Positions 24,223 through 27,909 of a stretch of 32,431 nucleotides of DNA are shown one piece after another. Each line of letters begins with the position of its first letter. Positions within the stretch are counted from its first letter, which is position 1. The DNA comes from Sphingosinicella sp. YJ22 (lineage in GTDB: Bacteria; Pseudomonadota; Alphaproteobacteria; Sphingomonadales; Sphingomonadaceae), in contig NZ_JAANPA010000038.1 of the NCBI RefSeq assembly GCF_011320075.1, positions 1-32,431 on the forward strand, read 5' to 3'. The notes beneath the pieces are model-generated. The model had not been told where the DNA came from. It did not search any database and was given only the letters and a program-made list of their open reading frames with translations. A program made the position numbers and the translations under genes.

Positions 24223-24552
24223 ATGATGCGCCTCCCTCGCCCCGCCAGCCCCAAGGCGCTTTGGAACGACCTGCGTGAGTTCCTGGGCCAGCGCCGGCCC
24301 CACCAATGGGTGGCCGCCGCGCTGGCCCTTGCCATTCCGACGGTAATCGGGGTCACTTTCTTCTATGACACGATCGACGCGCATCGCGTCGGCCCGACCG
24401 TGATGTATCTCGAAAGCTGGCCGGCCGACCGCACGACCGAGCAGATCGTCGCCAAGCAGAAGGCCGACGAGCAGCGCCGCCAGGAGCTTGAGGCCGAGCG
24501 CCGGCGCCAGTTCCAGCGGCTGGAAGACGGCCTCACCAACATGGGCCTTTGA
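24223..24552 (+). CDS. Small membrane protein of unknown function upstream of ribD
   Basis: A 109-residue protein that I do not recognise. Residues about 29-48 (WVAAALALAIPTVIGVTFFY) form one membrane helix. The C-terminal third (about 74-105) is rich in Glu, Gln, Lys and Arg with no helix breaker and looks like a coiled coil. Topology is probably N-in, with the coiled coil in the periplasm. It lies 59 bases after tonB on the same strand and overlaps ribD by 4 bases (TTGA), so its translation is likely coupled to ribD. Two Met codons (24223 and 24226) could start it. Confidence 0.65.
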   Translation: MMRLPRPASPKALWNDLREFLGQRRPHQWVAAALALAIPTVIGVTFFYDTIDAHRVGPTVMYLESWPADRTTEQIVAKQKADEQRRQELEAERRRQFQRLEDGLTNMGL

Positions 24553-25517
24553 CCGACGACGCGCGCTGGATGGCCGACGCGGTCGCGCTCGGCGAGGAGG
24601 CGCGGGGCACGACGGCGCCCGGCGCCAACGTCGGCTGCGTCATCGTCAGGGAAGGCGCGCTCGCCGGCTCCGGGATGACCCAGCCAGGCGGCCGCCCCCA
24701 TGCCGAGGCGGTTGCACTTGAGGCGGCCGGCGACCGCGCCGCCGGCGCCACCATCTACACCACGCTTGAGCCCTGCGCGCACGAGAGCCAGCGCGGCCCC
24801 GCCTGCGCGGACCTTCTCGTTGCCGCCAGGCCCGCACGGGTCGTCTCGGCGCTGCGCGATCCCGATCCCCGCACCGACGGCTCGGGCTTCGACAGGCTGA
24901 AGGCGGCCGGAATCGCGGTGGACGTCGGCGTCGGCGCCGAAGCGGCGGAGCGCTCGCTCGCCGGCTTCCTCACCCGGACCCGGCTCGGTCGCCCCTATGT
25001 GACCCTCAAGCTCGCGCTGTCGATCGACGGCAAGATCGCGCTGCCGTCCGGCGAGAGCAAATGGATCACCGGCGTCGAGGCGCGCCATCACGTCCACCTC
25101 GAGCGCGCCCGCGCCGACATGATCCTGGTCGGCCGCGGCACCTACAATGCCGACGCGCCGGCGCTCGACGTGCGCCTCCCGGGCCTCGAGCATCGCAGCC
25201 CGCGCCGCGCCCTCCTCACCCGCGGCACGCCCGTTGAAGGTTGGACCATTTTGTCGTCGCCCGAGGGCATTTACGACCTCCATGACGTCAACGACTTGCT
25301 GGTCGAAGGCGGATCGGGCGCCGCCTCCGCCTTTTTGACGGCCGACCTGGTCGACCGGCTGCTCATCTATCGCGCGCCGTTGCTGATCGGCGAGGGCAAG
25401 TCGTCGGTCGGCTATATCGGCCTTACCGCCCTCGCCGACGCCCACCAGCGCTGGACCTTCGCCGAAAGCCGCGGCCTTGGCATGGACCGCCTCGAAGTCT
25501 ACGAGCGCACCCGCTGA
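24549..25517 (+). CDS. ribD: Riboflavin biosynthesis bifunctional deaminase/reductase RibD
   Basis: A 322-residue, two-domain enzyme. The N-terminal deaminase has PHAEAVAL and the zinc motif EPCAHESQRGPAC. The C-terminal reductase has RPYVTLKLALSIDGKIALPSG (core VTLKLALSIDGK), SKWITGVEAR and ILVGRGTYNADAP. It deaminates and reduces the pyrimidine made from GTP. The reductase half is shorter than usual (total about 320 against about 360), but key motifs remain. The start is probably TTG at 24549, inside the previous stop (TTGA); ATG at 24570 would give a shorter N-terminus. Its stop overlaps ribE by one base (TGATG). Confidence 0.93.
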   Translation: MTDDARWMADAVALGEEARGTTAPGANVGCVIVREGALAGSGMTQPGGRPHAEAVALEAAGDRAAGATIYTTLEPCAHESQRGPACADLLVAARPARVVSALRDPDPRTDGSGFDRLKAAGIAVDVGVGAEAAERSLAGFLTRTRLGRPYVTLKLALSIDGKIALPSGESKWITGVEARHHVHLERARADMILVGRGTYNADAPALDVRLPGLEHRSPRRALLTRGTPVEGWTILSSPEGIYDLHDVNDLLVEGGSGAASAFLTADLVDRLLIYRAPLLIGEGKSSVGYIGLTALADAHQRWTFAESRGLGMDRLEVYERTR

Positions 25518-26122
25518 TGTTTACAGGAATCGTCACCGACGTCGGGCAGGTGCTCGCCCATGAGGAGCGCGGCGACCTGCGCCTGCGCATCGGCTGCGGC
25601 TACGACATGGAAACGGTCGCGCTCGGCGCGTCGATCGCCTGCTCGGGCGTGTGCCTCACCGTCGTCGACAAAGGCCCGGACTGGTTCGCAGTCGACGTCT
25701 CGGCCGAGACCCGCGCCCGCACCGCCCCCGGCCTGTGGGAGGAAGGCGCCCGCCTCAACCTCGAGCGCGCGCTTCGGATCGGCGACGAGCTCGGCGGCCA
25801 TATCGTCACCGGCCATGTCGACGGCATCGGCGCGGTCGTCGCGGCCGACCAGGTCGGCGATTCCCTCGCCGTCACCATCGCCGCCGGCCCGGCAGTCGCG
25901 CCCTATATCGCCACCAAGGGCTCGGTGTGCATCGACGGCGTCTCGCTCACCGTGAATTCGGTTGAGCCGCTCGCCGACGGCGTCCGCTTCGGCCTCAACA
26001 TCATTCCCCACACCGCGCAGCACAGCACGCTCGGCGCCCTGCGCGCCGGCCGCGAGGTCAATATCGAGATCGATCTCATCGCCCGCTATCTCGAGCGGAT
26101 GCTGGCGAGCCGTACGGCCTGA
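25517..26122 (+). CDS. ribE: Riboflavin synthase, alpha subunit
   Basis: A 201-residue protein with two lumazine-binding repeats. Each starts with a typical segment: MFTGIVTDVGQV at the N-terminus, and HIVTGHVDGIGAV at about residue 95. The internal motifs are CSGVCLTVVD and CIDGVSLTVNSV. It dismutates two 6,7-dimethyl-8-ribityllumazine molecules to riboflavin plus the pyrimidine. The ATG overlaps the ribD stop (TGATG), indicating coupled translation. A 72-bp gap with dyads separates it from ribB. Confidence 0.95.
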   Translation: MFTGIVTDVGQVLAHEERGDLRLRIGCGYDMETVALGASIACSGVCLTVVDKGPDWFAVDVSAETRARTAPGLWEEGARLNLERALRIGDELGGHIVTGHVDGIGAVVAADQVGDSLAVTIAAGPAVAPYIATKGSVCIDGVSLTVNSVEPLADGVRFGLNIIPHTAQHSTLGALRAGREVNIEIDLIARYLERMLASRTA

Positions 26123-26183
26123 GCAACGCTCCGTTGCACCTTCTGATGTGATTCTGCTCTAGTGAATCACATTACGATGTGAT
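26123..26183. promoter_or_regulatory. Hairpin and two overlapping ATGTGAT dyads upstream of ribB
   Basis: GCAACG/CGTTGC (26123-26137) is a short hairpin after the ribE stop. Next comes ATGTGATTC (26146-26154) with GAATCACAT (26164-26172), an exact 9-bp inverted repeat with a 9-base spacer. The second arm is reused in ATCACAT-TACG-ATGTGAT (26166-26183), a perfect 7-bp dyad. GATTC and GAATC are both GANTC, the CcrM methylation site. No FMN riboswitch is present in this short gap. Repressor-operator function is inferred. Confidence 0.6.
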
Positions 26184-26194
26184 ACCAGCCGCCC

Positions 26195-27484
26195 ATGAGC
26201 ACCATCCTTATCGACCGCCTCAACGATCTCGTCGCCGCCGGGGAGATGAGCCGGTCCGGCCTCGCCCGCGCCGCCGGGCTCCACCCCAATTCGCTTCGCC
26301 GCCTCGGCGAGGCCGACTGGAACCCGACCGCCGAGACCCTGATGAAGCTCGAGCGCTTCCTCGCCAGCGGGCCGGGTGACGTCATGGCGTCGCCCGAGCA
26401 GATCATCGACGAGGCGCGCAACGGCCGCATGTTCATCCTCGTCGACGACGAGGACCGCGAGAATGAGGGCGACCTCGTCATCCCCGCCCAGATGGCGACT
26501 CCCGAGGCGATCAACTTCATGGCCCGCCACGGCCGCGGCCTGATCTGCCTGACCCTGACCAGGGATCGCGTCGAGCAGCTCGGGCTCGAGCCGATGAGCC
26601 GCAACAACGGCACCCGCCACGAGACCGCCTTCACTACCTCGATCGAGGCGCGCGAGGGCGTCACCACTGGCATCTCGGCCGGCGACCGCGCCCGCACCAT
26701 CTCGGTCGCGATCGACTCCGGCAAGGGCCGCGACGACATCGTCACCCCGGGCCATGTCTTCCCGCTGATGGCGCGCGACGGCGGTGTCCTCGTCCGCGCC
26801 GGCCACACCGAGGCGGCGGTCGATGTGTCGCGCCTCGCCGGGCTCAACCCCTCGGGCGTGATCTGCGAGATTCTGCGCGAGGACGGGACCATGGCCCGCC
26901 TCGACGACCTCATCCCCTTCGCCAAGCTTCACGGGATGAAGATCGGCACGATCCGCGACCTCATCGCCTACCGGCTGCGCAAGGACCGCCTGCTCGAGGA
27001 GACCGCCTCCGCCAAATTCGACAGCCGCTGGGGCGGCACCTGGACCGCGCGCACCTTCGTCAACAAGGCCGGCGGCCAAGAGCATGTCGCGCTCGTCAAG
27101 GGCGCGATCGACCCGAGCCAGCCGGTGCTGGTCCGAATGCATGCCCTCGACCTCCTCTCCGACGGCTTCGGCGAGGCGTCGGACCGCGGCCGACTGCTCG
27201 AAGGCGCGATGCAGCAGATCGGCGACGCCGGCTCGGGCGTCATCGTGGTCATCAACCGCAACATGCCAGGCGCGCTGTCGCGGGCGCTCAAGGTCCGCTC
27301 GGGCCAGCCGGCGCAACCCGACAATGAGGCGCTGCGCGATTATGGCGTCGGCGCGCAGATCCTCGCAGCGCTCGGAGTCCACGACATGATCCTGCTCACC
27401 AACACCCATCACGCGCCCGTCGCGCTCGCCGGCTACGGTCTATCGATCGTCGAGGAGCGGCCGATTCCGCTGGCGGCCCGCTGA
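26195..27484 (+). CDS. ribB: DHBP synthase with N-terminal HTH and degenerate GCH II domain
   Basis: A 429-residue, three-part protein. Residues about 5-58 form an XRE-like helix-turn-helix ([20 protein letters not shown], then [12 protein letters not shown]). Residues about 65-270 are 3,4-dihydroxy-2-butanone 4-phosphate synthase, with [11 protein letters not shown] at 84-94, [12 protein letters not shown] and [14 protein letters not shown]. Residues about 285-425 resemble GTP cyclohydrolase II, but the three zinc Cys of E. coli RibA are replaced by Asp319, Asp330 and Gly332, and the RQEGRNIGL loop is altered. RibB activity is likely; cyclohydrolase activity is not. This is like the described RibBX proteins, with an extra DNA-binding-like domain. 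ribH follows after 2 bases. The upstream dyads suggest self-regulation. Confidence 0.93.
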
Positions 27485-27486
27485 CC

Positions 27487-27909
27487 ATGGCGAAATTCCT
27501 GATCGTCGAGGCGCGCTTCTACGCGCACCTGAATGACATGCTCGTCGCCGGCGCCACCGCCGCGCTTCAAGCAGCCGGCCACCAGGTCGAGGTCGTGACC
27601 GTGCCCGGCGCGCTCGAAATCCCCGCCGCAATCTCCCTCGCCGCCGAGAGCGGCCGTTATGACGGCTTCGTCGCCATCGGCGTGGTGATCCGCGGCGAGA
27701 CCTATCATTTCGAGATCGTCGCGGGCGAGAGCGCGCGCGGCATCATGGCCCTCACCCTCGACGGCCTCGCCATCGGCAACGGCATCCTCACGGTCGAGGA
27801 CGAGGCCCAGGCCCTGGTCCGCGCCGATCCCGCGCAGAAGGACAAGGGCGGCGAGGCGGCCAAGGCCGCGCTCGCCCTGCTCGACCTTCGCGAGAAGTTC
27901 GGGCGCTAG
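27487..27909 (+). CDS. ribH: 6,7-dimethyl-8-ribityllumazine synthase
   Basis: A 140-residue lumazine synthase that condenses the RibB product with the ribityl-aminopyrimidine. Characteristic features are [15 protein letters not shown], the [21 protein letters not shown] active-site strand (core RGETYHFE), and [13 protein letters not shown]. It is slightly shorter than typical proteins of about 155 residues, with a short N-terminus. The ATG lies 2 bases after ribB, so both are translated from one message. nusB, a frequent follower of ribH, is absent; the next gene is convergent. Confidence 0.95.

Follow-up and report, generated by a model that had tools for sequence, protein, structure and literature searches.

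Why should an enzyme of riboflavin synthesis carry what reads as a DNA-binding head, and is there a site in the genome for such a head to bind? The question is raised by a rib locus of Sphingosinicella sp. YJ22 (family Sphingomonadaceae), located on the 32,431-nt stretch analyzed here (the window) in the gene order ribD-ribE-[72 bp]-ribB-ribH. The initial annotation had proposed that a helix-turn-helix (HTH) of the XRE type is joined in frame to an intact 3,4-dihydroxy-2-butanone 4-phosphate (DHBP) synthase, RibB. The locus and the predicted parts of the fused gene, HTH-RibBX, are as follows:

24549-25517, + strand: ribD (Pfam RibD_C and deaminase domains)
25517-26122, + strand: ribE, riboflavin synthase (Pfam Lum_binding, 153.5 bits)
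26195-27484, + strand: HTH-RibBX gene, 429 aa (open frame; Pfam and NCBIfam domains)
26216-26386, + strand: XRE/Cro-C1-type HTH domain, residues 8-64 (Pfam HTH_26; AlphaFold2, Foldseek)
26282-26305, + strand: putative recognition helix, residues 30-37 (HPNSLRRL), placed by comparison with the XRE pattern
26396-26971, + strand: DHBP synthase (RibB) domain, residues 68-259 (Pfam DHBP_synthase, 275.6 bits)
27002-27463, + strand: degenerate GTP cyclohydrolase II-like (X) domain, residues 270-423 (Pfam GTP_cyclohydro2, 120.3 bits)
27487-27909, + strand: ribH, lumazine synthase (Pfam DMRL_synthase, 144.9 bits), directly 3' of ribB and presumably sharing its transcript

The fusion itself was borne out. 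The frame at 26195-27484 starts with ATG and holds no internal stop, the RibB domain scores 226.5 bits against NCBIfam TIGR00506 (cut-off 177.45), and the positions aligned with the active-site residues R37, E38, D42, H153 and E174 of E. coli RibB are all identical. The X domain lacks the zinc cysteines when aligned with E. coli RibA, and a separate RibA that has them, with the sequence HSECLTGDALGSLKCDCG, is encoded elsewhere in the genome, where this ribB was the sole copy found. Judged by its predicted domains, the enzyme part is of the RibBX type with an extra N-terminal head. Alignments with 17 PDB relatives containing RibB begin no earlier than residues 63-69, and in the one HTH-bearing record whose annotation was examined the protein is named just ribB.

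The reading of the head as XRE-type has some profile support. In a search of residues 1-68, HTH_26 (Cro/C1) matched residues 8-64 at 24.1 bits, above its curated cut-off of 22; the same match reached 19.6 bits, under the cut-off, when the whole protein was searched. Among 72 aligned N-termini, picked earlier by the start of their match to the query, Pfam matches at E ≤ 0.01 were obtained for HTH_26 in 11, HTH_31 in 17 and HTH_3 in 20, and NCBIfam found little on the N-terminus. A profile of these N-termini against PDB sequences gave no significant match (best E 0.1, to T4 lysozyme, a chance match). The structural check proposed in the initial annotation came out mixed. AlphaFold2 modeled residues 1-70 from 72 sequences with a mean pLDDT of 81.7 (about 90 over residues 11-50), and Foldseek returned 273 PDB matches, of which the 50 listed were mostly XRE/Cro/C1 folds (probability up to 0.98), including CapH, HipB, C.AhdI, 434 Cro and repressor, and SinR. 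The best E-value was 0.21, however, and DSSP assigned no helix in the models at residues 27-45, where the recognition helix is expected. A full-length AlphaFold2 model from 24 sequences (pLDDT 66) was too poor for a fold to be read from it. Overall, support for a predicted XRE fold is moderate.

A24, G28, L29, H30, N32, L34, R35, W42, N43, P44, T45 and T48 are invariant in the 72 aligned N-termini, and these include H30, N32, L34 and R35 of the putative recognition helix (72/72). Over 46 HTH codons, the median dN/dS was 0.34 (10-90% range 0.19-0.54) for the 2278 pairs passing the synonymous-divergence filter.

The survey of the fusion's distribution covered 196 genomes from the order, of which 113 belong to the family of the window and 83 do not. 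A ribB with the HTH N-terminus, recognized by the motif GLHxNxLR, was found in 102 of the 113 family genomes (hereafter HTH+; invariance of the motif residues among these 102 is partly by definition). Ten family genomes have a single-copy ribB lacking the HTH (HTH-); nine of them come from a single genus, which contributes four HTH+ genomes to the sample as well. One further family genome (G157), reported as 100% complete, had no RibB match and possibly represents a riboflavin auxotroph or a gap. Beyond the family, an HTH search of 385 genomes of the class gave eight matches: four came from the fused gene of family members, and the other four lay outside the family with no RibB motif seen nearby. 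The same search gave no match in the HTH- family genome G005, so no free-standing copy of the HTH was found there. Small stand-alone HTH relatives with the same (W)NPT pattern occur outside the family at L154 and L156 (around 1501), the latter frame resembling an antitoxin-type XRE protein; such proteins are a possible source of the HTH of RibB.

Upstream of ribB, within 26123-26195, the stretch proposed earlier for a gel shift, lies a perfect palindrome that the initial annotation had not mentioned, accompanied by a further copy of its half-site:

26166-26183, no strand: predicted operator palindrome ATCACAT-TACG-ATGTGAT, co-conserved with the HTH
26147-26151, + strand: extra half-site TGTGA, 19 nt 5' of the palindrome start, recurring in relatives

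The palindrome (ATCACAT-N4-ATGTGAT) sits in the 72-bp gap, 11 nt 5' of the ribB ATG. It does not represent a CRP-type site, the consensus of which is TGTGA-N6-TCACA, because its half-sites face the opposite way (TCACA-N6-TGTGA).

To each of 130 ribB upstream regions an operator score was assigned, defined as the best match of 14 bases within -200 to +20. The set consisted of 102 HTH+ regions, all in the family, and 28 HTH- regions, the latter made up of the ten single genes and two second copies from the family together with regions from 16 of the 83 genomes outside. All 102 HTH+ genes scored 10-14 (2, 9, 18, 32 and 41 genes at 10, 11, 12, 13 and 14), with 91 at 12 or above and the eleven weakest operators retaining just 10-11 of the 14 bases. 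All 28 HTH- genes scored 6-9 (1, 7, 15 and 5 genes at 6, 7, 8 and 9). Single-base shuffles reached at least 12 in 0.03% and at least 10 in 4.5% of cases. In the aligned sites, ACA and TGT were present in 102/102, the outer C in 101 and the outer G in 99. In 62 of the 102, an extra TGTGA stands 17-21 nt 5' of the palindrome; at control distances its frequency was 0.14 per position. When the scoring was repeated on 80 named Sphingomonadales records selected by the HTH, some from assemblies shared with the first set, 79 usable regions were left after one record was skipped at a contig end; all scored at least 11 and 75 at least 12 (4, 13, 30 and 32 regions at 11, 12, 13 and 14). Plasmid records followed the same division, as two from Novosphingobium with the HTH scored 12 and 13 and three without it scored 7-8. 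The initial annotation had counted homologues that start at about residue 64 and lack the extension as a refutation, but this is true only of the genes without the operator.

A tree was next built for 44 RibB proteins, leaving out the HTH columns. HTH+ genes did not form one clade (p-AU 0.0005), and the best tree required seven HTH changes, three of them forced by starred branches. Operator (score ≥ 10) and HTH presence agreed in 44/44 rows; thus, on this tree the predicted operator and the HTH change together. The agreement extends to 3/3 independent pairs, a number too small for a sign test (p 0.25). One genome, G179, has both kinds of gene, with close scores of 10 for the HTH+ copy and 8 for the HTH- copy. 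Gene context points in the same direction. Whereas 25 of 28 HTH- ribB genes stand behind ribE, this holds for 28 of 102 HTH+ genes, while nine are divergent from a flavin-reductase-like gene and 65 have neither neighbor within 600 nt. HTH+ ribB retains its operator also where the gene lies away from ribE, and the operator therefore follows the HTH, not the rib operon. At L174, the operator lies between a flavin-reductase-like gene (PF01613; 906-1463, - strand) and HTH-ribB (1530-2840, + strand), so the flavin-reductase-like gene may be co-regulated.

Near-perfect copies of the site are mostly found at ribB. Allowing at most one mismatch, a search of the 113 family genomes counted 84 copies of the palindrome, 73 at HTH+ ribB (a count taken from the ribB operator scores and not matched coordinate by coordinate) and 11 elsewhere; none at this level lies in the ten HTH- family genomes, and the only such site in the window's genome is the one at ribB. 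The reversed pattern gave seven sites in the same 113 genomes. The 11 non-ribB sites are no excess, because 40 sites were found in the 83 order genomes outside the family. A wider regulon at this level was accordingly rejected, with second sites examined near genes for enolase/DivIC, an OmpA-like protein and an aldo-keto reductase having no clear riboflavin link. When a looser pattern of 12 bases was used, 44 sites turned up, versus five for the reversed pattern, in 12 genomes that were chosen mostly for having several sites, and the reversed pattern holds TA steps that may make it too rare as a control. Twelve of the looser sites were in G152 and four in the HTH- genome G053, with none for the reversed pattern in either. 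Weaker candidate sites beyond ribB may form a wider set.

The sequences flanking the palindrome suggest how it could act. Ahead of it, T is over-represented at 6 and 5 nt and G at 4 nt (62, 71 and 51 of 102), an A follows it directly in 88/102 (the mirrored T is present in 19/102), and the first in-frame ATG lies 11-13 nt past it in 72/102. These features are consistent with a sigma-70-like promoter that has the operator as its spacer and a transcript start at or near the ATG, although the -35 position of the window itself is a poor match:

26160-26188, + strand: presumed promoter, with -35 position 26160-26165, -10 position 26183-26188 and the operator as spacer

Following this reasoning, HTH-RibBX is probably a bifunctional trigger enzyme that represses its own gene at its own operator. 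Two features of a trigger enzyme were found, namely a predicted DNA-binding domain on an enzyme with active-site residues and a specific candidate operator at the enzyme's own gene. The basis is one of sequence: the fusion, the predicted operator, the strict coupling of the two, and near-perfect sites mostly at ribB. From these we infer physical binding, and repression over activation. In the proposed mechanism, the C-terminal part would act as DHBP synthase and include the degenerate RibA-like X domain. RibB is dimeric, and two N-terminal XRE heads paired by enzyme dimerization would bind TCACAT-N4-ATGTGA, with the extra TGTGA half-site probably engaged by a second dimer or subunit. The bound protein would block transcription of ribB(-ribH) from the promoter that presumably has the palindrome as its spacer, so that the enzyme would limit its own synthesis. 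The earlier proposal of a DNA-binding, transcription-controlling RibB thus gains strong indirect support from the co-conserved palindrome, its candidate target, and as a whole it is partly supported.

Other explanations have to account for the same observations. The HTH could bind the operator and activate the ribB promoter, given that XRE proteins can act as activators and that the extra half-site is located 5' of the -35 position; we consider this quite unlikely, as the palindrome fills the -35/-10 spacer, a usual position for a repressor site. Alternatively, the palindrome could be bound by another transcription factor, with the HTH of RibB being a structural or oligomerization segment that was lost alongside. 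The HTH profile scores, which are weak in many members, would fit such a segment. Agreement between operator and HTH in 130/130 upstream regions and 44/44 tree rows, the concentration of near-perfect sites at ribB and the invariant residues of the putative recognition helix all argue against it, making this alternative very unlikely.

The palindrome could also act in RNA, as a leader hairpin controlling translation or attenuation, since its halves could pair over 7 bp around a loop of 4 bases. Pairing would not account for the base identities that are kept (ACA and TGT in every HTH+ site) or for the third, unpaired TGTGA copy that recurs upstream. The flanks resemble a promoter with its start at the ATG, and no Rfam family matched the window at the gathering score, all of which leaves an RNA element as a most unlikely explanation. 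Control by an FMN riboswitch (RF00050) was rejected, as no match was found in the window or, using Infernal with stricter filters, in any of the 113 family genomes, against matches in 16 of the 196 order genomes. No riboswitch was found in the ten HTH- family genomes either, so control is not always needed, a point that counts against the proposed autorepression.

Autorepression by HTH-RibBX at its own operator could be coupled to the state of the pathway, since DNA binding might plausibly respond to a ligand bound by either the RibB or the X domain. It is about as likely as not that the protein senses flux, serving as its own transcriptional feedback sensor that represses its own promoter. 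Under this reading, the signal would be either ribulose 5-phosphate or DHBP bound at the RibB site, or else a flavin or GTP bound in the inactive RibA domain. The RibA at L002:1438-2487 (- strand, 349 aa) has about 160 residues before its cyclohydrolase domain with no Pfam match at E ≤ 0.001; this N-terminal part is perhaps a decayed RibB half.

Fusions of this general kind are known. RbkR of archaea joins an HTH to riboflavin kinase, another flavin-pathway enzyme, and differs in its enzyme, its HTH type and its archaeal origin. The closest parallel in kind is NadR of Enterobacterales, in which an N-terminal HTH precedes NMN adenylyltransferase and ribosylnicotinamide kinase domains and pathway genes are repressed; its HTH is likewise confined to one lineage, with most orthologues elsewhere lacking it (PMC12421817). 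NadR has other enzymes, serves another cofactor and represses several genes, whereas the near-perfect predicted sites of HTH-RibBX are mostly at its own gene. For the origin of such fusions, the closest case is BzdR, an N-terminal HTH on a shikimate kinase-like domain; its enzyme activity has been lost (PMC3602430), in contrast to HTH-RibBX, which keeps its active-site residues. The enzyme part is closest to RibBX, with the same degenerate RibA-like domain, reported in Shewanella to regulate RibB activity; the available text mentions no HTH or operator for RibBX (PMC10012899). Wolbachia wBmxR1 and wBmxR2 are HTH_XRE-superfamily regulators acting on the riboflavin gene ribA (PMC3518464), but are separate proteins, unfused to an enzyme, that also act on secretion genes. 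A literature search of titles and abstract openings, with subscription papers mostly outside its reach, returned no DNA-binding RibB; a term search of the accessible part of PMC4418817 gave no match, and the accessible part of a 2026 review on riboflavin regulation mentions none (PMC13028884).

For several lineages without the FMN riboswitch, the control of riboflavin synthesis has been described as an open question (PMC3766115). If the flux-sensing reading is true, HTH-RibBX would be the protein equivalent of the FMN riboswitch across most Sphingomonadaceae and would form a self-contained enzyme-plus-operator cassette, functional within or outside the rib operon. The finding also suggests a possible role for the RibA-like X domain, and the coupled changes of HTH and operator offer a natural series for studying how enzymes turn into regulators. 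In most of the family's genomes, control appears to rest with the pathway enzyme itself, through a defined predicted operator.
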